Below, one piece after another: positions 1 to 36,233 of a DNA stretch of 64,000 nt. A program made the position numbers and the translations under genes. The stretch spans positions 124,001 to 188,000 of the forward strand of contig JAMAHW010000044.1 of assembly GCA_023627715.1 (NCBI GenBank). Direction: 5' to 3'. This DNA is from Periconia sp. R9002. Lineage: Eukaryota; Ascomycota; Dothideomycetes; Pleosporales; Periconiaceae. How positions within the stretch are numbered: the first letter of the stretch is position 1; every line of letters starts with the position of its first letter. The notes beneath the pieces are model-generated. The model saw nothing but the letters and a program-made list of their open reading frames with translations. It was not told the DNA's origin and made no database searches.

Positions 1-1
1 T

Positions 2-1287
2 CAAGCTATTGCCAAAACCGCTAAGCCTTCAAGTGATCCGTCTTCATCTGATTCAGAGGGTCCATCCTTCCACGACTCAGCCATTGGAACGCCAAAGGAA
101 GAAAAAGCCGCTTTTGTAGAGGGAAATTCAGCTTTTGTCTTTGAGAAGGCTAGAAAGATCATTGCTGAGGAAAGCGGAATTGCCGAAGACGATCTAACTG
201 ATGATACAACTTTTGCAGATGCAGGAGTCGATTCATTATGCTCTCTTGTCATTACTAGTCGTCTTCGTGAGGAGCTCGAGCTGGATTTGGACCCGGATTT
301 CTCTCTCTTCGAATCCGTCACTACCGTTGGCGACCTTCGCACAATGTTCAATGGCGACGAGAAAAATGCTGTCGATACATCCGAAGCCAAACCTTCGGCA
401 CCCGCTGTAGTAGAGATCAGTGAAAAACCGCTCGAGCTCGTGCCATTCTGCCGACCGACAAAATCGGTGATCCTGCAGGGCACGCCAAAGCATGCTCGTA
501 GAACGCTGTTCCTGCTCCCAGATGGAAGTGGATCTGCAACTTCCTACACCGGCATTCCCAGAGTATCCTCGGACATTGCCCTCGTTGGTCTAATCTGCCC
601 ATACAGTCGAGATGCTGAGAACATGAACTGCACCTATGACTCTATGATGGAGAGCTTCGTAAACGAGATTCGGCGTCGTCAGCCACATGGGCCGTATCAT
701 GTTGGCGGCTGGTCTTCTGGAGGAGCATTTGCGTTCATGGTAGCTGAGCTCCTGATCAACAAGGGAGAGGAGGTTCACTCCATTGTTGTAATCGATGCTC
801 CAGTTCCACAGCCTATGGAGAAATTACCTCTTGAATTCTACGAGTATTGCAATTCTCTGGGTCTTTTCCCTCAACAACCCGGAGAGTCAGCAGAGCCCAA
901 TGCACCGGACTACTTGATACCTCACTTCATCGCCGTTGTTGATGTGACCATGGGGTACAGGTCATCACCTCTGAAGACCCACCGTATGCCTAAGCTCGGC
1001 TTGATATGGGCTTCTGACACAGTCTTAGAGGAATCAAAAGCCCCGAAGATGAAGGGTATGCACTTTATGGTCAACAAACGTAGGGACTTTGGGCCTGATG
1101 GCTGGGACAAAGTGCTACCTGGTGGAGAGTATGATATCATTGTCGCCGAAGGTGCTAATCATTTCACTTTGATGGTAAGTAAATAGCAACGACTGCTAAA
1201 GCTCCTTTGCTAACATTCACACAGCGTCCACCTTACGTAGATCTCGTTCGAGAAATCATCAATCGCACTGTTGGAGAGCAAGACTGA
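2..1287 (+). CDS. Non-reducing polyketide synthase, C-terminal part (ACP-TE), 5' truncated by window edge
   Basis: Frame 2 is open from the window edge, so the KS, AT, PT and starter-loading domains lie to the left. The visible 411 residues are a Ser-rich linker, an acyl carrier protein with the phosphopantetheine serine in GVDSL (residue 78), a second linker and a thioesterase. The TE has the nucleophile motif GWSSGG (Ser 238) and a C-terminal histidine in ANHFTLM (residue 387), as in Claisen-cyclase thioesterases of NR-PKSs that close and release aromatic polyketides. One intron (1175-1224) separates the His motif from the last 20 codons; without it the frame stops at 1186. Only one ACP is visible. 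With the FAS pair at 25-36 kb, the missing N-terminus is predicted to carry a SAT domain accepting a fatty acyl starter. The domain call is secure; substrate and product are inferred. Confidence 0.93.
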
Positions 1288-2032
1288 GGAAGGCAGCTCA
1301 TGTGATAGGATTTCTCGGAGAACCGTTCGAACAAATTTTTTCATCTTCTGTTCTTGGTTCTAGTTAGCAAATTGAGTCTTTAAACTCTTTCCTTAGTGAT
1401 CTGTCTAAGTAAATATCAACTCACAGTGATCGCAAAACACACAATTGAGCCTTGTGAGATGTCAAAACAGTGTTACCAGCACCAAGGTTCGTACATATTC
1501 TTGGATAGCGGCGTGATCACATGGGTATCGTAGTTGAATATATGCACAGTCAATGCATACTCTATCTCCATAAGTTGAATATAGGACGAGAAGGCCTATT
1601 CTGATTTTCTTTGTACATGAATTGCTAATCATCTCACATTAAAGCTACTTAAGATTATCAGTAACGTTTTATTTGCGAAGCTATAAACGATGAGGAAGAT
1701 ATCTTTTATTTCAACATGAACGCAAGTAAATACTTCTGTAATGATAATTCACGGCAGATAATCTATGGCAACATCGAAATGAAGAGTGAGCGAGCAGGAA
1801 GATCCACATAGTTTTATTCCATAGTCTAGTAGAGCTTGGTATGCAAAGATCTTATCTCCCTCTATGTTTTTGCCACCATCAATCAACGGAAAAGAAAATA
1901 GCCATGAGCTCCGGCAACGGACTCAGTAACCACGTTCAAAGGCAAGCTCAGACTCCAAGATTGAAGCCCAGACTAGGCTAATTAACGGACCGATCGTGGT
2001 TTTATGCGCTCATGGTTGTGCCAGTGACAAGC
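1288..2032. other. Intergenic, convergent 3' ends
   Basis: AT-rich gap between the 3' ends of the PKS and the SDR. I see no ORF with family resemblance, no repeat and no RNA gene. Confidence 0.6.
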
Positions 2033-2794
2033 TTAATCCTTGAATGTAACCAACGCACCTAACCCGTCCCTCCATGCCTTTACCCTCTCACATGCAGGTC
2101 CAGCAGCGACTTCCTTAAGTTGCTTTGCCGGAATGTTGTCTAGCTGGCTGAATACCTCGTCCTCATACTCGTGTAGCGGCATTGCCCGAAGATTCTTGGG
2201 CGTCTGGTCCTTGTTTTTGCGGACATATTCGGTCTCCACATAAGGTGGCACAATCTCAATCACGCTCACCGGAGAGTCCTTAAGTTGCTGCCGCAGGGAG
2301 ACGAGAAAGTAATGAAGACCCGCTTTGCAAGCATTGTAAACCGGAAAGAAAGGAATTGGCACGTATCCCAGGCCAGACGTGGTGATGATGAAGTGCCCCT
2401 CGACGTTCTCTCCGCGCGCGAGGAATCGAGGAATCGTATGGCGTGCAATGATTGCAGCCGAAGTCAAATTGGTTTGCACTTCTAGCGTGAGATCGGCGTC
2501 AGTGCAGGAGTTGATGTCTTTGATTGAATAATGGGTTGCCATTCCACTGTTGATCCATACAGTGTCGATGTCGGGATAGGTCGTGAAGAGCTTGTCGAGA
2601 TGTTTTGGAAGTGCGAAAAGGTCGCTCACATCCATTGGATAGGTCTCGAAGCCTTCGGCCTTAAGCGCATCGAGGCGGGCTTGTCGCCGGCCAGTGATAA
2701 TTACTTTCTTGCCTTGCGCAAGGAGACGCTTAGCGGCAGACTCTCCGAGGCCGGATGTGGCGCCGATAAGAAGAATGGTGTTGAAAGGGGCCAT
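2033..2794 (-). CDS. Short-chain dehydrogenase/reductase
   Basis: Single-exon gene of 253 aa. The classical SDR layout is visible: cofactor loop GATSGLG (residues 11-17), NSG at 82-84 in the place of the usual NNAG, and the catalytic triad Ser140, Tyr153 and Lys157 in YNACK. An Arg after beta-2 (TGRR) suggests NADPH preference, which is inference. It probably reduces a keto group or oxidises an alcohol of a polyketide intermediate in the cytosol. It converges on the PKS and is followed on the same strand by a CMD-like gene. The start is the first ATG of the frame, directly preceding the dinucleotide-binding strand, so it is firm. It could also be an unrelated general SDR, but its position inside the cluster argues for a tailoring role. 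Confidence 0.9.
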   Translation of the reverse strand: MAPFNTILLIGATSGLGESAAKRLLAQGKKVIITGRRQARLDALKAEGFETYPMDVSDLFALPKHLDKLFTTYPDIDTVWINSGMATHYSIKDINSCTDADLTLEVQTNLTSAAIIARHTIPRFLARGENVEGHFIITTSGLGYVPIPFFPVYNACKAGLHYFLVSLRQQLKDSPVSVIEIVPPYVETEYVRKNKDQTPKNLRAMPLHEYEDEVFSQLDNIPAKQLKEVAAGPACERVKAWRDGLGALVTFKD

Positions 2795-3158
2795 GGTTGC
2801 GTTTCTGTGGTGGGATGCTGAATTTCACAACGGTGCTGTTGATCTTTAAATTCAGAGACTTCTTGGATGCCTACGCAATTACTGTGGACTTGGAAGTGCA
2901 GAAGTCGTCACCATGCAGAGCAGTCGTCACCTACAGAGCTCGGGGAATACGAATCTCATCACGTGATACATCTACCTGGTATCGGACATCAGGTTGATGT
3001 AGTCGGGAATAAGAAAATTGCATTTCAGCTTGGGTATTCACCCCAAACTGCCAAGCCATTTATTCGGAGGATTACGTACACATAAGATGCTACAATAATT
3101 GACCGACGTTCTTGTCACTGTACATCCGGACCCCGAGAAATCAACCAATCGCTTGCAA
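2795..3158. other. Intergenic, SDR upstream region
   Basis: Carries the SDR promoter and the 3' end of the CMD-like gene. No TCG(N5)CGA match was found. Nothing else recognised. Confidence 0.5.
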
Positions 3159-3689
3159 TTAATCCTCCTGCAATTCCTCCGTGCTGATCACCGGCGCATC
3201 AATAGCATTTGCAACTATGGAAGCTCCGATATGCAGACCAACGAGATGTATGATTCCGATGGTGCCATTTTTGCCCAATAGGTCGATACAATTTTCCCAA
3301 TACTGAGGCGGCAGTGGTCCTGGTATGGCTACCAGATACGTAACAGCATCATAGGCCGCGCGGCCCGCTGGACTGAGATCGTGCGGTTTCATGCCCTCGA
3401 TGATAGACTTGACTTGTGAAGGTGCCAAGGTTTTGATCTGGCGGGATAGCCAAGCAATTTCCCCCCTCGCTCCATAGTGAGCCGCCACTGCTAACTCCGC
3501 AGTTTCCTTGGCTTCCGCCGGGACCGGGAGGGTGTCGATCTCATCCGCGAGTTTTCTGTATGCGGGTGCGATTGTACCGTCTCGAATCAGGTATGGAAAC
3601 CCACCGACAGTTTTTGCCTTGTTTTGATCTGTCTGGGATCCAGATAGCCATCTCACATATCGGTCGAAGCGGTTCTCTGTTTGAGGCAT
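3159..3689 (-). CDS. Carboxymuconolactone-decarboxylase-like protein (CMD1)
   Basis: Single exon, 176 aa, all-helical AhpD/CMD-type protein. The central segment (AELAVAAHYGARGEIAW) resembles the conserved CMD helix in which Glu and His/Arg residues line the active site. There is no CxxC pair, so it is not an AhpD-type peroxidase. In bacteria the family decarboxylates a muconolactone in the beta-ketoadipate pathway; fungal cluster members have been linked to decarboxylation, isomerisation or cyclisation, so the exact reaction cannot be read from sequence. A second, diverged CMD-like gene lies at 6.6-7.2 kb. The family assignment is good and the function open. Confidence 0.8.
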   Translation of the reverse strand: MPQTENRFDRYVRWLSGSQTDQNKAKTVGGFPYLIRDGTIAPAYRKLADEIDTLPVPAEAKETAELAVAAHYGARGEIAWLSRQIKTLAPSQVKSIIEGMKPHDLSPAGRAAYDAVTYLVAIPGPLPPQYWENCIDLLGKNGTIGIIHLVGLHIGASIVANAIDAPVISTEELQED

Positions 3690-4660
3690 TGGAACTGAAA
3701 AATTGTTGGCTGACGACGTCTGTTATTGTCTTTTGGGATGATCCGGTGTCTCTTTCCTCGTACTGTTGTCTTATCATATGTCTTCACACTCTGCAAACTC
3801 GTGTAGTTGATGGTTATGCCGAGCCCCGAGCGTCGGCGATTTGCAACCGCTAGGTGAATGAATGAGAAGTCATTGCTAATCTCTCAATTTTGGAATGTTT
3901 GGATCCAGTCTTAGCGGGTACAATTTTCATTTTCTTAAAATAATTTAGATACATATGACGCGGAAATGCTAGCTAAGTGTCGCTATTAGAGAGGAAAATA
4001 TACAAGATATGAACAAGAAGACACATTTTGCAAAGTTCACTAGTCTAACGGTATTGCATGCGGCAGTAATCTAGTACTCATCTAAGTTCATCAATGCATG
4101 ACGCTCTACTTGGGACATCTCATCACTCTGGTGGCTGCGGCTGAGAAAACCGAAACTCTTTTGTGGTTTCTGTGTTTTTCATAAAACTTATTTATAACGA
4201 GGACAAACAAATATCTGGTATTCTCCATTCAGATTCTCGAGCAGGGCACCATCCACAAGCTTGGCACTTTCGGGTACTGTAAGAAACTACGTGTGGCTAT
4301 TTGAAAAAAGCCTTGAAAAGAAGGACGTGAACATAATCTTCTTGGCTTGCGTTCCAACGAGGTCCCGATTACGAGGAATGCGATGGAGAGTAAGAGTTGA
4401 GTATTACACGCATATTCTCATGAACAAACGAGAACAAAATTGAGAATGATTGGGGGACGAAGTTCTTGTTGAACCAAACCAACCAACTTGAAGGAAAGTT
4501 GAGGACGGGCTACATATTCGTTCACTCTTTAATACTTGCACTTTGTCGCATGAAAAGCATCTTGTCCCTTGGCGTAGACAACAAACAGTGCGACCAGTGC
4601 TGCTCTCCTCAATGACTTTTGCTTAGTTCCTTCATTGTTTTCTCTGCCACGTCTACGCAG
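3690..4660. other. Intergenic, about 970 bp
   Basis: Upstream region of CMD1 and 3' flank of the FAD monooxygenase. Mixed composition with A/T runs. A short ORF at 4261-4443 has no recognisable features. Nothing else seen. Confidence 0.5.
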
Positions 4661-6017
4661 TCATATGACCACATCCACTCCACGATGGCGGGCGGGCTCA
4701 CTGGCAACTGTCAGTGTAATGCATTTTTGGAGGCAAGATAGTGCTTTAGACTTACATTCGGGTAACTGATCTGGAGGCAGGACACTCCTCACAGCCGCCT
4801 GTAGCTGGGGCGAAACCTCAAACGCAGTAGAGTCACGGCGTGAGAGATACACCATGGCGCTAGCTCTCGGCTTGCGCAAGTTCTCCCAGACCTCTAAGCG
4901 GGATTGAATCTGTTGAGGATCATTGACGCCCCTCAACACTACGCCCAGCACGGCCGCATCCTCCATGGCGCTGGCAGCTCCCTGGCCATAGGAGGGCATC
5001 ATGGGGTGACAAGCATCGCCAAGCAAAACAAGCCTATTCTTGTGGAACTTGGGAAGTGGCTCGCGATGGGCCGTCTTGCGCAGGTAAAACGAATCTTCTG
5101 GGGCTGCTCGGATCAATTTGGGGATGGGCTCTTTGTATGTGTCGAGACATTCGAGCGCCAGCTGACGGATGTCTTCGTTGGTCCAAACCTTGGTGTCATC
5201 AACATGGCGGTAGACGTACACGCCGAAGTTTTGAATCTCATCACTGCAGCAGGTCGTCAGATCAATACTCTTATGCAAGTTCTTGTCTTTCTGCTTCGAT
5301 GTGTACTTACTGTCGGCAGGCCGAGCGGAAAAGGCCCACGGATTTGTCCTCGCCAAAATAATAGCTCATACGCCAAGGGCTCTCAAGGATCATCTTCATA
5401 CATTCTGGGTGGGCTTCCAGATCCTTGGTGGCGAAGACAAATCGAATACTGGCTGCCTTTGACGTCTCTGCTGGTCGTTCCTCTCCCACAACCGCAGCGT
5501 GAGCTATCGATCGCACACCATCTGCCGCGATGACCAAGTCTGCCGTGTACACCTGGCCAGTGACGGTCGACACGCTTGCATTAATTGCATCGAAGGAGCC
5601 CACTTTCACACCCTCGAATATCTTCACTGGCACGCCTATTCCCTCATTCGAGATGGCCAAATTCCACAAGGCTCGGTGGAGATCGGCTCGATGGATAAAC
5701 CCACTAGGGGATCCATAGCGGTCCTCGACGGTTCCTGGCGGTGGGACCCACAGTGATCTCCAGGCTGGTGTCGACGTATCTACGTCTCCCACGAAGCCGT
5801 CGATGCCCACCCATGGCGTAAAACCAGTCTTTTCGAGGTCAACACCAAGTTTGCGAAGGATTCTAGAGGCATTGGGCGTCGAGCTCAGAGCGTATCCATC
5901 TTCTGTCTTGCCGACGGCTCGCTCGAGAACAGTAACTCTGTGACCGCAACGGCGAAGCGCGATAGCAGCAGTGAGACCACCAATGCCGGCGCCCACAATG
6001 ATGATGTTCAATGGCAT
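4661..6017 (-). CDS. FAD-dependent aromatic monooxygenase, salicylate-hydroxylase type (FMO1)
   Basis: Three exons (6017-5311, 5243-4756, 4707-4661) joined by introns 5244-5310 (67 nt) and 4708-4755 (48 nt) give 413 aa, the usual size for class A flavoprotein hydroxylases. Visible motifs are the N-terminal FAD fingerprint GAGIGGL (residues 9-15), the DG motif in AADGVRS (Asp166-Gly167) and the C-terminal GD motif GDACHPMMPSYGQG, all diagnostic of NAD(P)H-dependent ring hydroxylases such as salicylate or 3-hydroxybenzoate hydroxylase. The first intron is obligatory because the frame stops without it; the second is inferred from a GTAAGT donor and could be read through. It likely hydroxylates, possibly with decarboxylation, an aromatic polyketide. 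It is divergent from CMD2 across about 560 bp. Confidence 0.92.
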
Positions 6018-6576: not shown

Positions 6577-7222
6577 ATGTCGCGAATCCCCCCTACCCCT
6601 CGCCACGAGCTCGACGCGGAGCAACAGAAGGTGCACGACCACTTTGCAGCCTTCACGTCGCGAGCGTACGGGGCGAATGGAGAAAAGTTCACCTACCAGG
6701 ACGAGCGGGGCGCCTTCATCGGCGGGTTTCCGCTGTACGTGCAGCACCCGCGCATCGCCTTGGCGCACAATCAGCTGGCGGTCGCCGTTAACCGTATCGC
6801 CATTCCCGAGCGGGTCAGGAACACGGTGACGCTGGCGGTGGCGGGGCGTTTCCAAGCCGCCAGCGAGATGTCGAGCCAGGGTAAGCGGTAAGCCAAGACC
6901 TATGTATACGACGAACACGCTCAGGGAATTCTTCGCTAATCCCGGTGGCGGTAGATATGTCAAAAATGGCGTTTTGACGGCGCCCGAGGCGCAGGCGTTG
7001 ATGGCTGGGAAAAAGCCCGAGTCGCTCGACGGTGCGTGCAGCGTGGCTTTCGATGTGACCACCCACCTCCTCTCCGCGTCGGGCCGGCTCCCAGATAGAT
7101 TGTGGGATTCGTGCATAGAGGCTGTAGGCGAGGAGGCGTTCTTTGGTCTTCTCCATGCTCTCGCTTTTTACGCTTGGCTGTGTGTTGGAGTTAATGCCCT
7201 TGATGTTCCCGTCCCCATGTGA
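6577..7222 (+). CDS. Carboxymuconolactone-decarboxylase-like protein (CMD2)
   Basis: Two exons (6577-6887 and 6955-7222; intron 6888-6954, 67 nt) encode 192 aa from the ATG beginning MSRIPP. The upstream in-frame ATG at 6499 would add 26 unrelated residues and is less likely. The layout matches fungal CMD-like proteins: an N-terminal Pro/Glu-rich start, a GGFPLY segment shared with CMD1 (GGFPYL), a VRNTVTLAVAGRFQAASE helix corresponding to the CMD signature, and a hydrophobic C-terminal helix. A donor at 6881 would break the frame, while 6888 keeps it. Base composition is clearly more GC-rich than the flanks. No catalytic CxxC is present. It is probably a diverged paralogue of CMD1 acting on a different intermediate; that is inference. 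Confidence 0.78.
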
Positions 7223-8516
7223 ATGTCAAGTACTATCTTTAGCCGTTATGGGATACATCATCCTTGCAATACAACAATCATTCGTCCTTTGAGATTCTAG
7301 TCACGAAGGCGGTTACATGTTCCGGTTAAAAGTAAATAGTAAAAAGTAAAAAGTGATTGTTATCAATAATTCAGTCATCTTGATGTTGATGTATAAACTT
7401 TGAGAATAGTTGCCGGTATGCTCATCTTGGCCGAGGACGTTACTGGGTGTTTTTTTTGCCTGCGTCGATACCCAGGTAGCAATACCCTGTGATGATCAAT
7501 TTACAATTCATCAACTTTCAAGGTTTCCATTTGTGACAACATCAAAAAGTCGACATGTATGGAATTGATCAAGGAAAAATTATGAAGTAAAACAACTAGT
7601 GGTTTACAAAGTAACTAATAGCTAGAAAAGCCGATTCATTATGGGGTTTGGTTCAGCTTAGAACAGAGTGTCAACCGCACTTTCCGCTTTGAAGTACTAT
7701 AAAACAGCCCTTTAACGTACCTTCTATATGCTGTTAATAGTTATTCTACATTTCAATTTCTGTTAGACAGCATCCCTAGGGTATGCCAAACCCTGTCATG
7801 TTGTCTTACAAGAAACGCATCTCACGTGATTGAATTAACAGCCGCGGCACTTTACCATCAATTGTAACAACTAGTTCAAAGGGCAGAAAAGAGCCGAACA
7901 CACAGAGATTCTTACTCAACATAGATGGAGAAAAGGAAAAAGGAAAACAAAGGAAGAAGGAAGAAAGAAAGACAACGTGAAGGGGAGAGACCCTAGTGAA
8001 CGTCTGGTAACGCCCAAGTATAATATTAAAAGAGATAAATAGAAATGATATCACCGCATAGTAGGAATGCTACTTGAAGCAACACCCTAACCCAAATCCC
8101 TCTCATGTGACCGAAGCTCCATCTTACACTCACTCAATCACCTCACGCAAAAGCAAAAACACCGCACCATTCACAAAGGCAGACTAGGTAGGATTCAATC
8201 ACGCGTATCTTTCACGGCTCCTCTAATCTACACCACATCCCCAACACCATCAGAGGAAAGAAGAAAAAGCCGGACCAACCCAAAACATCGATTCAGCTCT
8301 CTCTCCTCTCTCACTAGTCGAAAAACACGACACATCTCCCACCCTCTTCTCTTTTTCCCAAGTCGAAAAAAAGAAAAAGAAACTCCTCACCAAACTCCTC
8401 CAGCCGCACACACAGCCCAAACACCGCCAAGTCCCACCACCCCACCCCCAACCAGCTCGCCAAGCAGAGCTGACCTGCACATGCGCGAAAAAGCATCGCA
8501 GGCGGCTTTGAGCTTC
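7223..8516. other. Intergenic, about 1.3 kb
   Basis: Convergent 3' flanks of CMD2 and the Dabb gene. AT-rich to about 7.9 kb, then a strongly C/T-biased stretch on the plus strand at about 8.1-8.47 kb. No gene recognised. Confidence 0.5.
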
Positions 8517-9010
8517 TTACGCGGGAGTTTCGAAAACAATCGAGACGGTTTTCTCGGTTTCGCAGACTTGGGCGCAGAGTTCGCGGGGGCTGTATACAAG
8601 GCACATCAGAAGGAGTGAGTTAGTTTTTGGTTGAGAATAGAGGGGGGGGATGGGGGATTTTGAGGGGGAGAAAGAGAGGGGGATAATTACCGCTCGTGTT
8701 CGGGATGCTCGTGGAATTCCTTGGCGCTTTCGGGACCGTCGAGTTCGACGCAGGCGGCTAGGTCCCACCCTTTGGCCATGTGCTCGTACGGACCCAGTGG
8801 CACGCCGGCTTTGAGACTGCGGACGCCTGTATCCGGTCCCAGAATTGTCAGTGCGTGCTGGTGGGGAGTTTGGTGCTGGGTGGAGCGAGGGGTGGGAAAC
8901 TCACAAGGGACCTTCGCGGGCATGGTCTTGCTGAGGTCGAGCCACTCCTGGATGATGGCTGGATCGGCATCAGGCTTGAACTTGAAGAAGGCGACTTGGA
9001 AGATAGGCAT
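8517..9010 (-). CDS. Stress-responsive A/B-barrel (Dabb) / EthD-like small protein
   Basis: Three exons (9010-8905, 8826-8691, 8589-8517; introns 8827-8904 and 8590-8690) encode 104 aa. The N-terminus MPIFQVAFFKFKPDAD, the central RSLKAG strand and the ELDGPESAKEF-HPEH segment match the dimeric alpha/beta-barrel Dabb pattern. All three exon junctions keep phase and are needed to restore the C-terminal strand SIVFET. Small barrel proteins of this clan occur in aromatic polyketide clusters, where they act as cyclases, decarboxylases or cofactor-less oxygenases; EthD-type members occur in anthraquinone and aflatoxin-type clusters. Which reaction applies here cannot be told. It is divergent from the AflS-like regulator, with an AflR-type site between them. 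Confidence 0.85.
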
Positions 9011-10091: not shown

Positions 10092-11372
10092 ATGAGAATT
10101 ATGGAGGAAGAACCCATCGCCAATGGAAGAACCACAGATCCTGAGATATGGATGCGCCACCTCGTTCGCAACGCAAGTACAAACCACACCAACACACCCA
10201 CACACACTCCCGCGCATGCGTGCGAGTCCTCAAGCCTCCATTTTTTCTTTAGGCTAACAGTAGACCTCGAGCCAGATCCAAACAGTAGCCTGTCTCCGTT
10301 GGCTGTGCGAGTTCAACATCTTACCCTGCATCCCTGAGCAGCAGCCCGTTTCGTACGAAGACTTGTCGCAACTCGCGCTCGTGCCCGAAGGACACTTGCG
10401 CAGGATATGCCGCATGCTGATCGCCGCCGAGTTCTTGGAAGAGACGGGATCGACGCATGTCGGGCATACGGCCTTATCGTATGCATTCGTCAACAACTTC
10501 GCGCTGTCGGACGGCCTTGCGTTCTTGACTGAAACAATTGTTCCGGCGTCATTGAACATGGTGGAAGCTAGTAAATCATCCGACAAGGGTCATGGGTCGC
10601 CTTACAGTGCTGCGTTTGGTGCCTCGACGTCCTTCGCAGATCAGGCCGTGCCTCATGGGAGATTATCGCGTCAATTCGATCATTTCATGCGGTGTATTGC
10701 GAACGATGCTGGGGATGGCCTGGTTAGCGTTTTGTCGCGGTTGATTATCAGCGGAGGCACAGATGCGCTAGTTGTGGACGTGAGCGGGAACTGCTTCCTG
10801 ACGTTGTCACTGTATTCATGTGCTGATGGTTTGTGCAGGTTGAGTGTACTTCCCTCGCCATTATTCGAACGCTTGCTGCTCTGCATCCGCGGCTGTCATT
10901 CGTGGCTCAGTTTGTTAATGAGCGCCCGCCAACGGACAGCAAAGCGCTGCCTGAATCCATCGCTCCACGCATTCAATGCTGCCGCCAACCAAATCCTGAC
11001 AAACAGCCCATACGTAACGCATCCGCCTACATCTTGTTTTTGCAGTCCATGAACACAGACGACGCAGCCGATCGAGCGCGTCGCCTGGCCAACTGCATAC
11101 AGGCGCATGCTGACATACTACGGGGCAACGGCGATTCGAAGCTAGTAATCCTGGCAGCGACGAGCCCTGCAGCTGAGGTGGACTGGCATAAGCATGTAGC
11201 TCACCTGTGTCGGTTTCAGTTGTCTCATGGTGTACCGCTGGACAGCCGTGAGCTGCGTGGCATACTCGACGAAGCTCTGCGAGACGTCATCGGACTGTCC
11301 CTGACAGGCATGACTCTGTCGGAGAATGGCGATTTTTGCTCATATGAGATAGCTTCTCAAGTTCTTGCATAG
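10092..11372 (+). CDS. AflS/AflJ-like pathway co-regulator, degenerate O-methyltransferase fold
   Basis: Probable exons are 10092-10172, 10264-10779 and 10839-11372. The second intron (10780-10838) is a clear GTGAGC..CAG that keeps phase. The first is less certain: the best fit is a GC-AG intron with donor GCAAGT at 10173 and acceptor at 10263 or 10275. After it comes the hallmark helix VACLRWLCEF, then a winged-helix-like region (LSQLALVPEGHLRRICRML) and a Rossmann-like part. Where true methyltransferases have the glycine-rich SAM loop (VDVGGG), this protein reads VVDVECTS, so SAM binding is probably lost. This is the architecture of AflS/AflJ, which assists the Zn2Cys6 activator AflR in sterigmatocystin and aflatoxin-type clusters. 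Unlike those clusters, it is in tandem with the AflR-like gene, not divergent. The N-terminal exon is the weakest part. Confidence 0.82.
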
Positions 11373-13765
11373 TCCTCAACCGCGAGTATCATCATGCATT
11401 TGACAATCGGCAGGGAATCTTATCTTACTGGGCGAAAATGCAGAGGGAAAATGCAACCTATTAATTGAAAGTTAGATTGAGTAATCAAACCCTCGTAAAA
11501 CTCACATGATTCATCTGACAACCAATATGCCTGTGGCTTCAAATCACGACGAATCTAACCATCGACAATAGGTCTTATCGAAGCACCACTAAGCTCATCG
11601 GTCTAGAGACTAACATTGCAACCTGAAGCCCTGGTGGGCCCAACCGAGGAATTCATTTCGGCCCCAACTACATCCGTTGGTGAAATGGACTGGCTACTGG
11701 CTCTCCATCACAGCCATCTGCACCGAGCACCCTGGTCTCGGACGCGGTGACGCCGGAGCCGAAAAGGTGTTTTGTGCTCCCTCGCGTCGTCAGATCAAAC
11801 ATCGCCAATGAGAACTACCATGGGTAAAAGGCTGAACCCTTGCTGGAACATGGCGCAATCGACAAATTCTGCAACTGGATTGAATCATCGCCGTTTGTCT
11901 ACACACCCTTATCTGATCTGTTGCCTTCCTCGAACACATAACCGATGAAGCAATTGGACAAGATCCAGAACATGGCAGGCCTTGTGATGACGAGTTCTAA
12001 TTCGGAGTTACTCGGCGTGAATTCCTCTTTTTTTGGTAAGTGTTGAAAAGTGCTACACCAGCCAAGAAATGGGAGGAGTGGTTCCGAAAATATATGGTAG
12101 CGTTTAGCGAAGCGATCATCAATGAAGCGCTCATCTATCTCGGATTACCAGACTGGGGTATGGCATTTTATGAATGCCGTCAAAGGTGCCGGTCACATTT
12201 GGGCAAGAACCCTCAACGGGTCTATACATTATCAGATGCATGTACATAACTCGCTCGTACCTGTCGCACTCGGGGATAAGGCCAAGTCGTTTTTCGCGAA
12301 AATCCTGGAGAAACTACCAAGCTGTTAGCCTACTACTGCTAATTTGTAAAAAGCGACTGTACAAATCTGTACCTGGCGTGCCAATACTTCACGTGACTCG
12401 CCAGATGGCACTTGTTTTGTCATGGGTACGAGACGAAATAGGCTTGGTGGAATCACAACAGCAGCTAGGTGCGCGAATACGTGTAGCTTACGAGAAAACT
12501 CGCAGCATGCAGCACGTACACGGTTGGTTAATATGGCCGCGACGGGCCATTGCCATGCTCTTTTCCAGCATCCCGGTGAGTACGGATACGGGTATATTGC
12601 CAAGGAAGACCAAGGAGCAGTGAGAGTGGCGATACCAGGGCGTGAACAAGGTGTGGACCGTCAATCGCCCGGGTAATCGTCGACGTTGCATGCCCGTCAG
12701 CCCACGTACGCATCTATCGCACTCACACGTGAGATAAGAGCGACAACCATGTGGCATCCTGTGTTGTAAGCAGGCAACTATTCTAGAACAAGCTCCTTCG
12801 AGCTGGAGTGCATCCTTCCTTGCTCGTGTTGGGTAGGCCTAGCATCTGACGGTAGGCCTGTGCAGAGTGCAGCGTTCAACCAAGCAAGTAGGCCTAAGTA
12901 GGCACTCATTCTCTATCCACGCTTTGGCAGACTCGCTCTGCTTTGGCTTGAGAGTTCCACTCGTTGACGTGCAAAATTTGACCGAGGGTGCGGGAGATCT
13001 GGGAGGGGGGCGCGCGGCTGGCGGACGGACTGGATTGCGAGCTCGTATCAAGAAAGATTATGTATGGATAGATAGATAGATGGGTGTTCCTTTTGACAAT
13101 GTGGAGTAATCGCGTGTTAGAGTGGGGTTGAGAGTGCCAAGACCGGGGGCTTGCGGCCCGAGCGTAGACCATTCCAGATCCGGATAGGCGCAGGGGCTAG
13201 GGCACCGCGACGATCCGAAAGGGTCCAACGCTGATCATACCTCACCTCATCCATCACCTCACCTCACCTCAATCTAGGTATAGATCCATCAGATAATCCT
13301 GCAACCTGCTCACTTCAAGCCGCTTCTCAATCGCTACACTCGACGACAATGGGAAGCACTCTGACCGTTTACTTTTCACTCCTGACTTAGTTGCCATTCA
13401 TCTGCGTCTTCCGTCCATGCTTTTTCGCCCGTAATCGAAGCGCAAATTTCAGTCAGGGATCCTTCGTACATCGTACCTGTTGGTCCGTGGCAAACATGAG
13501 GTTGCCTGATACGAACGGCTAGGCTTGTCGGCCACCGTTTGGTGGGGTTTCTGTAAGCGGAGTTGGACCCTCAGGTAAATCCGTATTTGATCCCTGCGTC
13601 CAGCTGTACCATGTACGGGCGCTTAGATGTTTGTAACAAATGGGCTCACGGTGGTGGGTCTCGCCAGCTGCTGTCGAAACCTTCGAAAACATAGATCATC
13701 AGCTCAAAGTTGCCTGCTTTCCTTGTAGACCGCTGATTCTCCCCTCACTCTATGTTATGTTGACC
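11373..13765. other. Gene-poor 2.4-kb gap between AflS-like and AflR-like genes
   Basis: No intact gene recognised. ORFs at 12040-12249 and 12122-12328 overlap in different frames and could be remnants of a decayed gene, but I cannot assign a family. A GATA tetranucleotide run lies at 13066-13083 and a CTCAC-type repeat at 13240-13271. The last few hundred bases should contain the promoter of the AflR-like gene. I found only near-misses to TCG(N5)CGA (for example TCGTACATCGT near 13466). Confidence 0.45.
13240..13271. repeat. Short CTCAC(C) pentamer-like repeat
   Basis: About 32 bp of imperfect tandem ACCTC/CTCAC units roughly 500 bp upstream of the AflR-like start codon. It could be a simple sequence repeat or a cluster of sites for a CTCAC-recognising factor. 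Confidence 0.5.
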
Positions 13766-21554: not shown

Positions 21555-22904
21555 ATGGCGCAATCAATTACCGCAGACTCCCTCCTCGAACTGGCTGAGA
21601 ATCCCCCTCATGATTCTCGGGAACGATTCGCCCTCTATGAAGCAGCCCGACGACTCATGTTGTCCGTTGAGGACCCGATGAGCGTCGGCTCTCGAGTCCA
21701 ATTCAATGCATGATACTCCTTCGCCAAGCTGATGTCATAAACATACTGGCTAACAGTAATCTTTAGGTGACGGCAGCTGCGGTATCCCAAGTGGCAATCG
21801 ACCTCAAAATCTTCGAGCTGTTGGCCAACAATCCAAGCAAGCACTGGTCGGTCGACGACTTGGAGAAGCACACAGGTGCACAGGCGAGTCTTCTGGGTAT
21901 GTTCTCTGTCTATCGTCCGCAAAGTACAAATCTCTGATCAATAGTAGATCGCCTCATGCGCAACCTTGCGGTGAACAACTTAGTTCTTGAGGTCGCCCAT
22001 TCTACGTACTCCGCTTCTCACCTCACCGCACGCTGTGCATCTGCAGCGTTCAGAGCCGGTTTGGCACACAGGTTAGTGGTTCATACTGTAGTTTGTAGGT
22101 CTATCAGACTGATGTTTGCTTAGCAAGAACTTGATCTGGCCAGGCCTTCAGGTGTTACCTACGTTCTTGGCTGAAAACGGATACCGAAATCCCAATGACC
22201 ATGTGCGATCGGCCTGCATGAGAGGTTTGGGCTTTGCTGGCGATGTGATGGCTTATTTGAAAGAGAACCCCGAGAAAGCGGCAGCCAGCTACCTCTTCAT
22301 GGCCGAGAACAAAAAGGAGGCTCCAAAGTGGGTGGATGGCAAAGTTCCAACAACTGACCTCAAACTCAGCAACGATGAGCTTGCCGACAACCGAGTCATG
22401 TTTGTTGACGTCGGCGGTGGCAGCGGGCACCAGTGTGAAGCCATTCGCAAAGCCTACCCCCAATTGAAAGGTCGCGTCCTGGTAGAAGACCTCCCCTTCA
22501 TGGTCAACAGAATCGACAAAGAGCACGCTCGCACAATCGACTTTGAAGTTCTAGCGCACGATTTCTTCCAGCCTCAACCTATTCGCGGAGCCAAGGTCTA
22601 TTACATGCGCAATGTCATCCACGATTGGGACGACCAGCGAGCCTCCTCTATCCTGCAACACACCCGCGAAGCCATGACCAAGGATTCCGTTCTGTTCATC
22701 GATGAGATTATCCTGCCATTGACCGGCGCTTCGAGTAGGCAGGTACATATGGATTTGGCTGTCATGGTTTTTGCTGGAGCCATGGAGAGGACAGATGGGC
22801 AGTGGAAGACCTTGTTGGCGAGCAATGGTTTCCGGATCCGCGATGTGTGGGTCTACGATGAGCAGCTTGGTGCTGCTGTAATTGCTGCTGTGCCCTCTGA
22901 ATAG
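21555..22904 (+). CDS. SAM-dependent O-methyltransferase, plant-type fold
   Basis: Four exons. The start MAQSITADSLLELAENPP matches the N-terminus of fungal cluster O-methyltransferases. Exon 1 ends at 21707 (GC donor) or 21695 (weak GT donor); exon 2 is 21767-21896, exon 3 starts at 21945 or 21948 and ends at 22071, exon 4 is 22124-22904. The N-terminal part is a winged-helix dimerisation domain (VSQVAIDLKIFELL and LLDRLMRNLAVNN). The catalytic domain has the SAM loop VDVGGGSGH, the acidic VEDLPFMV segment and the catalytic His in NVIHDWDD with the partner helix LFIDEIILP. It methylates a phenol of the polyketide or a later intermediate, in the cytosol. Unlike the AflS-like protein, its SAM motif is intact. 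Exon 1-2 joining is the uncertain point. Confidence 0.88.
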
Positions 22905-23483: not shown

Positions 23484-24704
23484 CTAATTCGACTTAATTG
23501 CCTGCGTCTGGGCCTGCACCGCACTCGGCGGCCTAATCCCATCCCTAATAACATGATCCAAGCTCGTCAACGCAGGCCCATTCGACTGCGGCTTAACCGC
23601 ATCTTCCGGACGCCCCGTGAAGAACGCCAACGGGATGCTCGGACCCCAGATCTTGATCGAGTCGGGTTGAACCTCCTCGTAGGTAGGTGGGGTGTCGGAG
23701 TTAACGAGATCGCCGTCCGTGTAGTGCTCGATGATGTTGCCTGAGGCGTCGAACCTGCGCGCACAAGGGGTTGTTAGCGGGGTGGTTGGCGTTGTGGGAA
23801 GGGAGGGGAGGGGAGGAGGGTTTACCAGTAATCGAAGATGTGGCTTCCGTATTTGTGGCGCCCGATGCCGTAGCAGTTTGTCCAGCCTTTGGAGAGGAGC
23901 CAGTCGTGCCCGAGTTGTTGGGTGTCGTAGCTATCGGTTTCGAAGCTGCAGTGGTGCGGGGTTGCTTCTGGGAGGGGTTTCATTGCGCGGGAGAGGAAGA
24001 TTGTCTGAATTACTCGTCAGTAGGTGTGCGAAGAGTAGTAGGTGAGCGCATACATGATGGTCGACGAACTCCTTGCCCTTGTCGAGGTGCAAGAACATAA
24101 ACGCCGGCCTCCCATCTTTGAGCTGCAAACAGCTTGACAACTTGAGATTGAACGTATTCATGTACCAATCCACCGACTCCTCGAACTTAGAAGAGTCGAC
24201 CCTCAATCCATAGTGTCCACAATTCGCGACCAGCGACGGTCCGCGCTCGAAGGAGTGAAGGCTCTTCCGCGGATGAACAGTGCCGGAGTTGAAGACAAGC
24301 GGCACAGGCGCTTTCTCCTTAACTTCAGCTTCCGCTCGCAACTTCGCGCCATGCACGACCGTGACCTTCATCCCAACGGGATCCGTCAGCACGACTTGCT
24401 TTCCCCCACTGAGCGAGTGCGACGCCTCGATGCTGGATGCACCCGGCACGCGGGCGGCGCGCTCGAGATCATCTGCGGATTCTACCGCGAGGATCCCGCC
24501 GACGAAGTGCTTCCTCTCATCTGGCGACTTCTCGGCGATATAGATGTAGCTCTCTGGCCCAAAGCCGCGGTAGTACGTCCTGGTTTCTTCGCGCTTGGCG
24601 ACTATCAGGCCGAAGTCTACCAGGAATCTTTCGATGGCGTCGAGGTTGGGATGCTGGTAGTGTACTGCCATAAGACGGCTGAGTTGCACCTTTGGGTAAG
24701 CCAT
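23484..24704 (-). CDS. VOC-superfamily extradiol-type dioxygenase-like protein
   Basis: Three exons (24704-24054, 24004-23826, 23754-23484; introns 24005-24053 and 23755-23825) give 366 aa with two glyoxalase-fold modules. The first starts SRLMAVHYQHPN, the second NCGHYGLRV. The three metal ligands of type I extradiol (catechol 2,3-) dioxygenases can be matched: His164 in NCGHYGL, His235 in HHCSFE and Glu286 in GNIIEHY, with the usual GRHKYGSHIFDYW stretch before the last. An Fe(II)-dependent ring-opening, or at least O2-using, reaction is therefore plausible. Several fungal relatives annotated this way have no tested activity, so the substrate is inferred: a catechol made by FMO1 or FMO2. 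A candidate AflR site lies 190 bp upstream of the start. Confidence 0.85.
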
Positions 24705-29086: not shown

Positions 29087-29124
<38 letters not shown>

Positions 29125-30420: not shown

Positions 30421-33400
30421 ATGGCCATTCGACAAAACTACGACATGCCTTTGTCACAATCGACACCAGCAGAAAAGACTCGAGTGGCCGCTGTGTTTGG
30501 GGGCCAAGGCGATGGCAACCTCACTTCATTGGAGGAGATCAGGTCTCTCTACCACCACAGTCACACATCAATCGATGCACTGATAGAACGAGCAACTGGG
30601 ACGCTGGAAAGGCTGCTCCATCAGAACTCCGACAGCTTCCACGATGCAGCCAACTTCAATCTTAAAGGATGGCTTGACGGCAATCAAACGAGCCCAATAC
30701 CAGAGGTTCTTGCTGAACCGATTTTCAGTATACCAATCAACACTGTTTTGGCTTTTGCGCAAGTCATCATAGTTTGCAAAAGTTACAACTTGACACCAGG
30801 AGAATTTGCAGCATCATTATGCTCAGTATCCGGTCGATCGGAAGGCATGCTACTTGCCCTGGCGCTTGCGCAGGCAGCCGATTGGGCATCTTTCTACTCC
30901 TTGACTGACGCCTACATTGAGCTTTCGTTCTGGGTAGGCCTTAGTGTGCACGAAGCGAGGCCACGCGCAACTGTTACCTCTGCCCAAGTTCACGAGTGCC
31001 TAGACGTAGCCGAAAGCAAACCGTCTAACGTGCTGCGGGTTCGAGGGTTACCACGAGCCACGGTAGAGACAGCAATACACTTAGAGAACAAAACGACATC
31101 TTCCAGCGAGCGCGATCGTATATATTTGGCATCTTTAGACTCTCACCGTCAGTTCATCGTGGCTGGCCCGACCGACTCTCTGATTGGCGTGTGCACGCGT
31201 TTTCACAAAGGGAATTCGGCATTGACAAAACCCAAAGAAGGGGTGCACCTACAATTCTTGCCCGTTTCCACTCCACTAAATACACCGATTATGACTCCTG
31301 TGCTGGGCCGTCTGTTGAGCATGGCGTCGACAATGCCAATTCTCAGTCAGGAGCTCCGAATACCCATAATTTTACCCCAGGGTGGCAGTGTTGTGCAAGA
31401 TAGTAACGTGACAGCTATCAAAGTTCTCTACAATGTCATGGAGTCGTTGCTCAGGTGTATGGATTGGCCGGTCGCATTGGAGGCCCTCCGGGCTCATCGC
31501 ATCTTGGCCTTTGGTCCTGCTCAAACAGCTGCCTGGATACGGGAGGCAACAGTGGGCGTTGGTGTGGACGTGATTGATCTGGCTGATGACGTCGTGATAC
31601 GCCATTGCAAAAATCATGAGCACTTATTCCACCTGAGGCCCTCAAGCTCATCTTGGCAGGAAACCTTTGGACCACGCATTATTCGTGACTCTAGAGGCCA
31701 CTCCTCTCTCCACACAAACATGACTGCACGATTCAAAGTGCCACCACTCATGGTTGCGGGTATGACTCCCACCACAGTCCCATGGGACGTAGTCGCTGCT
31801 ATCGCAAACGCCGGCTACCACGCAGAATTAGCCGGCGGTGGCTATCATCGACCCGAGTCTTTCGAACTTGCTGTGCGGAAATTGGCAGCGGCTGTACCGG
31901 CACACCGTGGAGTCACTTGCAATTTGCTATACATAAACCCTAAAGTTACTGGCTGGCAGATCGATGTGTTGAAGAAGTTGACCGAAGAAGGCCTTCCCAT
32001 TCGCGGAATCACGATAGGAGCTGGCGTCCCCTCTCCTGAGGTGATCAAAGAATGGACCGCATCTTTAAAGTTGGACCACATATCATTCAAGCCCGGCAGC
32101 CCTGTAGCGATTGATCAAGTTATTGACCTTGCCAAGATTTATCCAGACCTCACCATCGGTCTACAGTGGACTGGCGGTAGGGCTGGAGGACATCATTCTA
32201 TGGAAGAGTTTGAGCCACCTATACTTGAAAGTTACAACCGGATAAGAGAGTGCGAAAACATTGTTCTTATTGCCGGGAGCGGTTTTGGCGATGCAGAGAA
32301 CTCAATCGCATATATAACTGGGCAGTGGTCTCGTGCATTTGGGCGCCCGCCAATGCCATTTGACGGAATCCTTCTCGGTAGCCGAGTTATGGTTGCTAAG
32401 GAGGCACATACAGCACGGGAAGCAAAATCTCTGATATGTCAAACACCTGGTGTGGATGCTTGTAAGTGGCGCGATTCACTCGACAAAGGAGCGGGCGGTG
32501 TCATCACGATTCATTCCGAATTCGGGTACCTCATACACGTTCTAGCTACCCGTGGGGCATTGCTCTGGAAATCCTTCGACGACCGCATATTCTGCATCAA
32601 GGATGTACACAAGAGGCTACAATATATGCGCAAACATCGAGACTGGATCCTCTCCGCCCTGAACTCTGACTACGTTCGGCCGTGGTTGGCTGTAGACGCG
32701 AAAGGCAACAACATCGAGGTTGAAGAAATGAAGTACTCGGAGTTGGTGAGCCGTCTATGTCTACTCATGTCGACCAGGTCGCGACGAACGTGGATCGATC
32801 CGTCATATTGCCGTCTTGTCATGGATTTCATTCGGCAGGTTGGATACCGTTTATCAATTTCTGTCACTGGTTTTAGTGAAGATCCAGCAACTCTCCCTGG
32901 CGAGTTCGAGGCTGCATTCGGCCACTGGGCTGCGACGAGCCTATATCCCGAGGACTCCATGATTCTCATGGCTCTTTTCCAGCGGCAGGGAGTCAAACCG
33001 ATACCTTTCATCCCATGTTTGGATCAAAACTTTGAAAAATGGTTCAAGAAAGACACCCTCTGGCAATCGGAGAGTATTGATTCCGTGTTCGATGGCGACG
33101 TCCAGCGAGTTCTTGTGATCCATGGACCTGTCGCTGCCCGTTTCTCTACTACAGTGGACGAGCCTGTGAAAACTATCTTGGATCACATCTGTGATGACTA
33201 TGTCAAATTTCTCAAGCAGAACGGATATCAACCGAAGAATAATAGCGAAACTGATGTCTTACAGTCCCTTCCTGAAATGCAGATCGGCCAAGAGGTGCAT
33301 GCATTCCCGAACGGTAGAATGATCAGGTTTACTTATATGCCTGGTCGTGCTGCCCCTGAGATTGATTCTCTCATCGAAGGGCTTGCTCGATCGGGACAGT

Positions 33401-36233
33401 TGGGTTTGATACTTCGATCGCGGTGGTCCATTTACGGGGGCCGTGTGGTCGAGAACCCAATCAAAGCGGCAATTCAGCCTCGTAACGGGGACACCTTGGA
33501 GGTTTTCGTCGACAACAAAGACGAATTCCAAGTATTCACATTCACTCAGCACAGACATGAGAATGCGAAGATGAGTTGGAGCAGTTTTTCACTGAGACTT
33601 CAGGGTCCTTCAGGTTTTGTAATTCAACTCAAAGTGCCAAAATGCGCGACGAATGAAGTCCGCTCCACGTATTTCCAGTTTGAAATACGGGAGGCAGCAA
33701 GTTCTGTAGTGATACGCGAAAACACTTTCAATCGTACAGCATCTATTCGAAACCTGTATCGCGCTCTTTGGTTTGACAAACACCAACTTCTTCGCCAACG
33801 AGATACCGACCTCCGCGCGCGGTACTACAGCGCAGAACAAACAATAACGAGGGCCAGCGTCCAATCATTTGCGAGTCTAGAACGCTCCTCGCCTACCGAA
33901 CTTCGCGATTGGAGCCCCCAGAGCTCAACAGTGCCACTGGACATGTGTGTGGTCATCGCCTGGCAATCACTTCTAGAGCCTCTCACGCATCCTGACCTTG
34001 ATTGCGACTTGCTACAACTGCTGCACCGATCTATCACTTTCAGGTACAAAGCGAAGACTTCACCTCTCCGCATCGGACAGACAGTTGCAATCGAGTCGCA
34101 AATCACCCGTCGAGAATGGCTTCCTACCGGGCAGAATATTGAGGTGACGGCGCTCATCAAGAGAGGCCAGGAGCAAGTTGTTGTTGTCAAGTCGGAGTTC
34201 TTCATACGAAGCTCAACCCAAGCATCTGGCGAATCCTTCGCTGTCGTACATGAACCCGACATGGTCGTTGGTGTCGATAACGAGATTTTAGAAGCGATCA
34301 TCAGGGATAAAGACTGGTTGCAATTGCACGAGCCACAACTGGAGCTCCTGCATGAAAACCTCATCTTCCGAACCACATCACACACTGAATATGTCGGCGA
34401 CGGTAGCTCGAAGATCCTCAAAGTTAAAGGCCGGGTGTACGTCGAGGACTGTTCTGGTACCCGAAAAGAGGTTGGACTGGTGCATTTCGAGGAACGCGCG
34501 TGTCGGGAGAACCCAGTAATGGGCTTTCTTCGTCGGCGGGGCACTCTTCAACGCCCGAGAGAGGAACTTCCACTCCCAGGCTGGTCTCATGGCGCCAGTA
34601 TTGAAGTAAGCGTGCCATCGGACAGCGCTACATATGCTCGTGTGTCTGGAGACGAAAACCCAATTCATGTCAGCGACCTTTTCGCCCGCTGGGCTGGCCT
34701 TCCAAGCAAAATTGTTCACGGGATGCACACATCTCTCATTGCCAGACGCTTCGTCGAGTGGGCAATTGGCGACAATAGTCGCACAAGATTCAGGCACTGG
34801 CGGGCTACTTTCCACGGCATGGTGTTTCATGGTTCCCGGCTCAAGATGCACATCCAGCACACAATGATGACGGGCGGAGAAATGCTACTTCATGTGGAGG
34901 TATGCAATTCGAACGATGGCACGCGTGTAATGTCTGCAGAGGCGATAGTAACGCAGCTCAGCACTGCATATACATTTACAGGCCAGGGTAGTCAAAAGCC
35001 TGGTATGGGGATGAACTTGTATGCCGCCAACAGCGAAATCAAGTATGTCTGGGACCGAGCAGAAGCATACCTGCAACGGCAATTCGGTAAGTACTTCTTC
35101 GCCAGGAAGCTAAATTTCTGCTAATATACTATAGGGTTTTCGTTGTTGAAGATAGTGCGCGAAAATCCGAAGACATTGACCGTTCATTTCAGAGGAAATC
35201 GCGGCCGAGGGGTGCGGGAGAATTACCTTACCATGATTGGTGAACTGAAAGATCCTAGTCTTTTGGGGACTACTTTGAATCGTCGTTCAACGTCGTACAC
35301 GTTCCACCATGCACAGGGTCTACTCTACTCGACCCAATTCGCGCAGCCTGCTTTAGTTGTTATGGAGATGGCTCAGTTCCAGCATCTCGGGGCCCGGGGA
35401 ATGATTCAACACGATGCTCGCTTTGCGGGACACTCACTTGGCGAGTACTCTGCCCTTGGTTCTCGCACAACCTTTATGGGTTTCGAAGCACTTCTGGACC
35501 TCGTTTTCCATCGCGCGTTCACTATGCAGAACGCGCTGGCTAGAGACGCGAATGGTGAAACGGGCTACTCAATGATGGCGGTAGATCCATCACGAATCAA
35601 CAAATGTAAGCAATAGAATTCCTCGCTGTGCTAAGTCGCTGACCTTGGGAACTCTAGCCTTTGGAGAGGCGGATCTGCAGCGCCTAGTCCAGCTCATCCA
35701 AGAATCCGCCCAGATTTTTGTCGAAATCGTGAATTACAACGTCAGCAGTCAACAATACGTTTGTGCGGGCCATGTAAGTAACGCTAGCAACCATTACTTA
35801 TCTCACATCCCCCACTAACCTCCCTCAGATCAAAGCCCTGGCGATCCTAAGCAGCGTATGCGACGACCTCGCGTCGCTCGAAACTCCCCACCTCCTCGAC
35901 CGCACTAAACTAAACACCATCATCGCAACACACGCCCGTCGCATCCTCTGTTCCGACCACATCAGCCTCGACAAAAACGGAAAGGCAACGATCCCCCTCC
36001 GAGGCATCGACATCCCTTTCCATTCCCGCCTGCTGCACACGCACATTGACGATTACCGCCGTTATTTAGAGCGCAAGATCCGCGTCGAGGACGTGGTACC
36101 TGAACAGTTGGTCGGCCGCTGGCTGCCGAATGTCATGGGTACACCTTTCGCGATTGATCGCGCGTATGTGGAGGAGGCGCAGAAACGCATGGAGAGTAAG
36201 CAGTTGGCTGAACTTCTTGAGTCTTCGTTTTAG
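30421..36233 (+). CDS. Dedicated fatty acid synthase beta subunit (HexB/StcK type): AT-ER-DH-MPT
   Basis: Four exons (30421-35086, 35135-35605, 35658-35773, 35829-36233; introns of 48, 52 and 55 nt) give 1885 aa, shorter than housekeeping FAS1 (about 2050-2080 aa) and close to cluster-type subunits. Order: acetyltransferase region (to about 400), FMN enoyl reductase from [14 protein letters not shown] (about 445) with [14 protein letters not shown], the dehydratase hot-dog region with [12 protein letters not shown] and KIVHGMHTS, then malonyl/palmitoyl transferase from [12 protein letters not shown] with GHSLGEY (Ser1656) and the partner IPFHSRLL. The MPT motifs are intact. In the AT the nucleophile elbow reads GRSEG (Ser140) and the usual PFHS reads PLNT, so its catalytic His seems lost. 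It forms the cytosolic synthase with FAS alpha and should supply the PKS starter. Confidence 0.95.

Follow-up and report, generated by a model that had tools for sequence, protein, structure and literature searches.

A norsolorinic acid-type polyketide gene cluster with an extradiol dioxygenase and an aminotransferase in Periconia sp. R9002, a possible source of 1-azaanthraquinone-2-carboxylic acids

The locus and its genes

The fungus Periconia sp. R9002 (Pleosporales) carries, on contig JAMAHW010000044.1 (C44) of assembly GCA_023627715.1, a gene cluster built around a non-reducing polyketide synthase (NR-PKS). The stretch analyzed (the window) spans 64,000 nucleotides, positions 124,001 to 188,000 of the contig; coordinates are window-based, a contig position being the window coordinate plus 124000, and negative numbers lie left of the window. 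Besides the NR-PKS, the cluster encodes a pair of fatty acid synthase subunits (FAS alpha and FAS beta), an AflR-like activator, an AflS-like gene, an anthrone oxygenase (AOX), three FAD monooxygenases (FAD1 to FAD3), an O-methyltransferase (OMT), short-chain (SDR) and medium-chain (MDR) reductases, a Dabb-domain protein, two orphan proteins (CMD1 and CMD2), an extradiol dioxygenase (VOC), and a protein of the aspartate-aminotransferase family (AAT) (Table 1). It is a real cluster of the noranthrone line that reaches beyond the window and has an unusual tailoring set. Since this set joins a ring-cleaving active site in VOC to AAT, it points to a product that is ring-cleaved and probably nitrogen-containing, possibly a 1-azaanthraquinone-2-carboxylic acid.

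The cluster extends left of window base 1 at least to -8692 (C44:115308), perhaps as far as an ABC transporter gene. The initial annotation, made from the window, had proposed looking to the left for a SAT domain and for further genes, and both are there: the PKS starts at -5124 and includes the SAT domain, and AAT and FAD3 are located between the ABC transporter and the PKS. The gene types listed in that annotation lie at or near the places given for them; it had omitted the SDR gene, and its labels for the CMD pair and AflS are not carried by profiles. For most cluster genes, manual models were assembled with reading frames, splice sites and homologues as guides. The exons of MDR and FAS alpha come from an ab initio finder (hexamer models), which was rejected as a general basis because it gave poor models that became worse on retraining; gene models in the flanks are unrefined. 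The assembly comprises 42.9 Mb in 267 contigs, and the left flank was examined over C44:84001-124000.

Table 1. Genes and tentative promoter elements of the cluster and its borders
Feature	Window coordinates	Contig C44	Strand	Basis or remark
ABC transporter	-14837..-10584	109163-113416	-	membership uncertain
AAT, aspartate-aminotransferase family, 423 aa	-8692..-7313	115308-116687	-	model, Pfam, PDB
FAD3 monooxygenase, 419 aa	-6899..-5526	117101-118474	-	model, Pfam, PDB
NR-PKS, 2079 aa, 4 exons	-5124..1287 (window part 1..1287)	118876-125287	+	spliced model, Pfam, tree
SDR reductase, 253 aa	2033..2794		-	adh_short E 9.3e-30
CMD1 orphan protein, 176 aa	3159..3689		-	no Pfam or convincing PDB match
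FAD1 monooxygenase	4661..6017		-	FAD_binding_3 E 1.2e-22; 3' end uncertain
CMD2 orphan protein, 192 aa, CMD1 relative	6577..7222		+	model, CMD1 alignment
Dabb-domain protein, 104 aa, 3 exons	8515..9010		-	PF07876 E 1.7e-11
AflS-like co-regulator, 3' part, 5' exons not placed	10276..11372		+	assigned by eye
AflR-like Zn2Cys6 activator, start codon not fixed	13637..15100		+	PF00172 E 2.8e-8, PF08493 E 1.5e-15
FAD2 monooxygenase, 388 aa, 3 exons	15607..16936		+	FAD_binding_3 E 5.8e-26
Anthrone oxygenase (HypC/StcM-like), 167 aa	17581..18154		-	PF08592 E 2.9e-22 on longer exon's frame
MDR-type enoyl reductase-like protein, 348 aa, 4 exons	19349..20577		-	ADH_N, ADH_zinc_N
O-methyltransferase, 392 aa, 4 exons, first intron donor weak	21555..22904		+	Methyltransf_2 E 1.2e-23, Dimerisation
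VOC, type I extradiol ring-cleavage dioxygenase, 366 aa, 3 exons	23484..24704		-	PF00903, orthologues, active-site residues
FAS alpha (HexA-like), 1574 aa	25481..30358		-	Fas_alpha_ACP E 2.3e-43, FAS_I_H, KR-/KS-type matches
FAS beta (HexB-like), 1885 aa, 4 exons	30421..36233		+	Fas1-AflB-like E 1.2e-146, MaoC, acyl transferase, meander
S9 peptidase gene	37272-39515			right flank, between FAS pair and P450
TCGGN3TCGG, exact promoter copies	3819, 6475, 9175, 24823			tentative element

The polyketide synthase and its starter unit

Pfam profiles identify in the NR-PKS a SAT domain (E 1.3e-63), a ketoacyl synthase, an acyl transferase, one PP-binding domain and a Thioesterase, while the product-template region gives only a weak match to PS-DH, a dehydratase-type profile. 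The full order is SAT-KS-AT-PT-ACP-TE, which agrees with the ACP-TE ending first read from the window, and the active-site motifs are kept (GVCGG, DTACSSS, GHSLG, GHIVD/HPAHVD, GVDSL and GWSSGG). The query used to search for homologues was an earlier model, in which one intron was kept in frame and the last exon was absent; 7985 candidates were scored, 1453 had E values up to 1e-20, and the best 120 of these were considered. Among these 120, the closest relatives, at 80-85% identity, come from Bisporella sp., Lojkania enalia, one nameless sequence and Ascochyta lentis; after these four, full-length homologues (Dothistroma, Fulvia, Aspergillus and others) are at most 59% identical and partial ones up to 64%. 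Identity to synthases of the norsolorinic acid line is 58-61% in aligned columns, and comparison of the SAT domain with four reference SATs gives 45-52% identity.

In a quick tree of 33 rows (the window protein and 32 of the best 120 matches, hand-picked to span groups), the window PKS and its four closest relatives form a clade with a Shimodaira-Hasegawa-like approximate likelihood ratio (SH-aLRT) support of 100 and a stem of 0.69. This five-member clade is embedded among the norsolorinic acid synthases, grouped with those of Cercospora, Dothistroma, Fulvia and Lecanosticta, sister to the aflatoxin/sterigmatocystin group; folding of a norsolorinic acid core is therefore expected. The Bisporella PKS (P0001), ~86% identical to the window PKS, lies on an 11 kb contig. 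Bisporella belongs to the Helotiales, and the other named members of the clade to the Pleosporales; horizontal transfer or contamination may explain this sequence. Ascochyta lentis has two entries named noranthrone synthase (P0004 and P0031), of which only P0004 falls inside the clade.

FAS alpha and FAS beta are divergently oriented, with 62 bp separating the modelled start codons. Pfam matches to FAS alpha include acyl-carrier, helical (FAS_I_H), KR- and KS-type domains, and the phosphopantetheinyl transferase domain is not matched. The genome has two further FAS-beta-like loci, which are only 41% and 37% identical to the cluster FAS beta (first 817 aa compared); thus, the cluster pair is an extra one. 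A dedicated FAS pair, the SAT domain and the position in the tree together sustain the initial annotation's view that the NR-PKS is fatty-acyl-primed and belongs to the norsolorinic acid line. The sequence is compatible with a C6 and with a C4 acyl starter alike.

The N-terminal part of FAS beta, too, gives a SAT match (30493-31218, C44:154493-155218; E 1.6e-11; residues 25-265), so that counting SAT matches alone overstates the number of PKSs in this genome. On another contig, C55, a divergent FAS-beta-like frame (155098-157539, L021; 1895 aa, 37% identical to the cluster FAS beta) lies ~22 kb from an AAT-like locus (179752-181039, L014 and beyond; 54% identical to the cluster AAT).

Tailoring genes, regulators and co-occurrence

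VOC (Glyoxalase, PF00903) keeps the metal-binding residues H164, H235 and E286 and the acid-base residues H217 and H267 in 31 of the 31 alignment rows. These residues line up with BphC/HPCD, and their roles are taken from the equivalent residues of those enzymes. A two-domain fold is predicted for P0121, an orthologue 86% identical to VOC (a model of the orthologue, not of the window protein). As a protein, VOC has good support as a type I extradiol dioxygenase complete with both domains, and cleavage of a catechol anthraquinone is its predicted activity; the earlier label, dioxygenase-like, can be sharpened, as the active site has the make-up of extradiol enzymes that cleave rings. No second copy was found in the genome, and close orthologues make up 5 of the 95 homologues retrieved.

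AAT matches Aminotran_1_2 (PF00155, E 8.8e-71) and PDB entry 6jpk (E 3e-120), and keeps the catalytic-Lys motif SFSK, with the Lys at 262. Three other AAT-like loci in the genome are 54, 51 and 47% identical to it, and the frame matched in the 47% locus carries two stop codons; the cluster AAT is therefore an additional copy.

The two FAD hydroxylases expected in the window both match FAD_binding_3, and FAD3, left of the window, is a third. The nearest PDB entries to FAD1 are 8x38, 8r2t and 8gsm, which places it near decarboxylative phenol hydroxylases. Those to FAD2 are 4hb9 and AbsH3, with TetX-type enzymes further down the match list. Pfam likewise upholds the anthrone oxygenase (Anthrone_oxy), Dabb, MDR and OMT assignments. 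No P450 match was found in the cluster span C44:115308-160233 (92 of 318 candidates scored) or among the Pfam-tested cluster models.

The label of CMD-like proteins is not confirmed: CMD1 and CMD2 match no Pfam family above cut-off, CMD included, and no solved structure convincingly. The pair is related (31% identical across 141 columns, probability 99), and the predicted structure of CMD1 is poor (predicted local distance difference test, pLDDT, 45), below what a structure search would need. Among 249 candidates, seven homologues of CMD1 have E values up to 0.001, three of them named (Periconia macrospinosa, Plenodomus lingam and A. lentis) and four nameless. CMD1 and CMD2 look like a small orphan family tied to this cluster.

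The activator matches both Zn_clus (PF00172) and the AflR domain (PF08493), as anticipated. Its AflS-like partner is recognizable by eye and has no profile match above threshold: Dimerisation scores 16.2 bits on the 5' open reading frame (cut-off 25.6), and the joined piece matches nothing in Pfam. Thus, support for this co-regulator is weak.

A direct repeat, TCGGN3TCGG, ranks first among 1496 patterns compared in a post hoc search (z 6.85; the next, 5.77). With at most one mismatch it occurs 18 times in 7.3 kb of cluster promoters versus 18 times in 33.9 kb of intergenic DNA from the flanks, and exact copies number 4 versus 0. The control regions were author-chosen, and the one before the ABC transporter gene is possibly part of the cluster. 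The repeat is present in 9 of 12 promoter stretches, those of AAT and VOC among them. One-mismatch copies precede AAT, SDR, FAD2, AOX and MDR/OMT, and one more exact copy is at 22384, within the OMT gene. The ABC transporter gene has three one-mismatch sites in the 1 kb before it, whereas the flanking S9 peptidase, P450 and MFS genes have none over the same distance upstream. The repeat is no more than a hint of a cluster promoter element. The site of this AflR-like factor may differ from TCGN5CGA, named as the canonical AflR site in a review of aflatoxin genes (PMC3202775).

Co-occurrence of the genes in other fungi is partial. Close VOC orthologues are present in some fungi that carry this PKS or CMD1. 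In Lojkania enalia the PKS and VOC are each on a contig of length 127,988, and the best VOC match and the P. macrospinosa CMD1 match are each on a contig of length 206,931; equally sized contigs are taken here to be the same contig. A. lentis carries the PKS and CMD1.

A candidate route to azaanthraquinones and its alternatives

From these genes we infer the order of steps, the position of cleavage, the role of AAT and the product as follows. The norsolorinic-type NR-PKS would receive from the dedicated FAS pair a short acyl starter, either C4 or the C6 unit known from aflatoxin, and yield an acyl noranthrone, which the anthrone oxygenase would convert to a 2-acyl-1,3,6,8-tetrahydroxyanthraquinone. 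One FAD monooxygenase would then hydroxylate C-4, adjacent to the 3-OH, to create a 3,4-catechol in the acyl-bearing ring. VOC would cut the C4-C4a bond, leaving C4 as the carboxylate of a 2-oxo acid, and C3 and C4a as ketones 1,5 to each other. AAT (or free ammonia) would bring in nitrogen, which AAT could place at the 2-oxo acid, and ring closure would give a 1-azaanthraquinone with a 2-COOH, a 3-alkyl and a 4-OH group. The ketone of the side chain would be lost through SDR and MDR, the other ring would gain a hydroxyl from a further FAD monooxygenase, and a single methylation would be the work of OMT. The C4-primed core after all these steps would be C19H17NO8 (summed by hand); starting from C6 would lead to the hexyl homologue.

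Phomazarin, a fungal 1-aza-anthraquinone of Pyrenochaeta terrestris, has the formula C19H17NO8, and its 2-carboxy-3-butyl-4-hydroxy pattern agrees with the proposed product. If the starter is C4, the prediction agrees with phomazarin in skeleton, oxidation level, number of O-methyl groups and pyridine-2-carboxylate. We judge the chances of such a route, from acyl anthraquinone through catechol, cleavage of the acyl-bearing ring and nitrogen entry to a phomazarin-type 1-azaanthraquinone-2-carboxylic acid, to be evenly balanced. Nitrogen insertion is plausible, and phomazarin as the actual product is no more than a lead. The wider proposal, in which the cluster serves to make phomazarin or a chain-length homologue by an extradiol ring cut and a pyridine rebuilt with nitrogen from AAT, with CMD1 and CMD2 assisting, is more tentative and falls somewhat short of even.

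The cores of bostrycoidin and fusarubin are different, of PKS3 type, and arise without FAS or ring cleavage. The bostrycoidin/fusarubin clusters of Fusarium nevertheless offer a comparable case, a fungal aza-anthraquinone pigment of polyketide origin whose gene cluster is known (PMC7589453). For phomazarin no genes were found in the literature searched, and neither a cluster for an azaanthraquinone of the present type nor a characterized cluster with this gene set was found there (best-ranked papers, mostly outside subscription journals). A precedent for the closure is rubrolone of Streptomyces, in which a polyketide 1,5-dione and an amine give a pyridine ring; thus, 1,5-diones can take up amines and form pyridines (PMC5059770). 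Unlike the present case, rubrolone is bacterial, and as described there its cluster is without a suitable aminotransferase and the pyridine forms non-enzymatically (PMC5059770). The alternariol cluster of Alternaria (PksI, OmtI, MoxI, SdrI and DoxI) also combines an NR-PKS, an FAD monooxygenase, an SDR, an OMT and an extradiol-type dioxygenase (PMC8878860), a likeness at the level of gene description. In contrast to the cluster studied here, its product is an acetyl-primed heptaketide, and the account of its genes names no aminotransferase or FAS (PMC8878860).

With the aflatoxin, sterigmatocystin and dothistromin clusters the present one shares an NR-PKS of the same domain order and wider clade, a FAS pair, an AflR-type activator and a HypC-type anthrone oxygenase. 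However, as the initial annotation had held of the tailoring set, it differs from them: it has its own PKS clade, the extradiol dioxygenase, AAT, three FAD monooxygenases and CMD1/CMD2, no P450 is seen among its genes, and TCGN5CGA is not enriched. A term search of the main text of the aflatoxin gene review finds neither "dioxygenase" nor "aminotransferase" (PMC3202775). The expectation of a different end product holds in that the tailoring differs, but it fell short, since the genes indicate more than merely another anthraquinone.

Among the alternatives, the one that survives best is a ring cleavage without nitrogen, in which VOC opens the catechol ring, the seco-acid closes again as a lactone, as a pyrone or in a xanthone-like form, and AAT is an unrelated neighbor. 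It would draw on VOC, the FAD hydroxylases and the PKS, all well supported, and AAT is similar to housekeeping enzymes and encoded at the cluster edge. However, AAT is an extra, diverged copy beside three other AAT-like loci, and sits between the ABC transporter and FAD3/PKS with matches to the promoter element; we consider this alternative rather unlikely. Two adjoining units, an ordinary hexanoyl anthraquinone cluster and, for the breakdown of phenolics or of the cluster's own product, an aromatic-degradation set made up of the FAD hydroxylases, VOC, the CMD-like proteins and Dabb, are less probable still. Salicylate/vanillate-type hydroxylases and extradiol dioxygenases are typical of aromatic catabolism, but here their genes are interleaved with those of AflR, the anthrone oxygenase, OMT and FAS and do not form two blocks, and CMD1 homologues and close VOC orthologues are few. 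A norsolorinic/averantin-type or dothistromin-like anthraquinone with a non-cleaving VOC would fit the PKS, FAS, AflR and anthrone oxygenase, but is very improbable given the full metal and acid-base set kept in VOC and the lack of a P450 match among the candidates scored. An aflatoxin-like product was rejected, as the tailoring set does not fit.

Several points weigh against the azaanthraquinone proposal. AAT resembles ordinary cytosolic enzymes, as its match to 6jpk illustrates, and may be a mere neighbor gene. The match to the structure and formula of phomazarin needs a C4 starter instead of the usual C6. The pathway chemistry is predicted from the genes, and CMD1, CMD2 and Dabb have no place in the proposed sequence of steps. 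TCGN5CGA is not enriched in the cluster promoters: it occurs in 4 of 17 genes (assuming start positions for the AflS- and AflR-like genes) versus 3.88 expected from shuffling, and 290 of 500 shuffles reach or exceed the observed count. TCGGN3TCGG was picked post hoc with close runners-up (z 6.85 vs 5.77), and was not found in the scanned stretches of FAD3/PKS, AFLR and FASa/FASb. No species is named in all three match lists (PKS, VOC and CMD1; the best and third VOC matches are without a readable name): A. lentis and Bisporella are not named among the VOC matches listed, nor Lojkania and Bisporella among those of CMD1, and the sole named Periconia PKS among the matches listed is just 44% identical. 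Nameless entries, annotation gaps or real losses could explain this incomplete co-occurrence. Finally, DoxI is given a role in ring rotation and lactonization in alternariol formation, not in ring cleavage (PMC8878860).

The first half of this pathway ranks with the most thoroughly studied in fungi, so that the proposed diversion to ring cleavage and nitrogen insertion is testable gene by gene. If the proposal is true, it would provide a first gene-level handle on fungal aza-anthraquinones such as phomazarin, a catabolic-type extradiol enzyme would join the tailoring of norsolorinic-type anthraquinones, and the orphan family CMD1/CMD2 would gain a pathway.

To the right of the FAS pair, beyond the S9 peptidase gene, lies a cytochrome P450 gene (41416-43549; PF00067, E 1.9e-58), which is probably outside the cluster. 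Further right, a heterokaryon-incompatibility-like gene (45146-47304) and an amino-acid-permease-like gene (54235-56025) are recognizable by eye.

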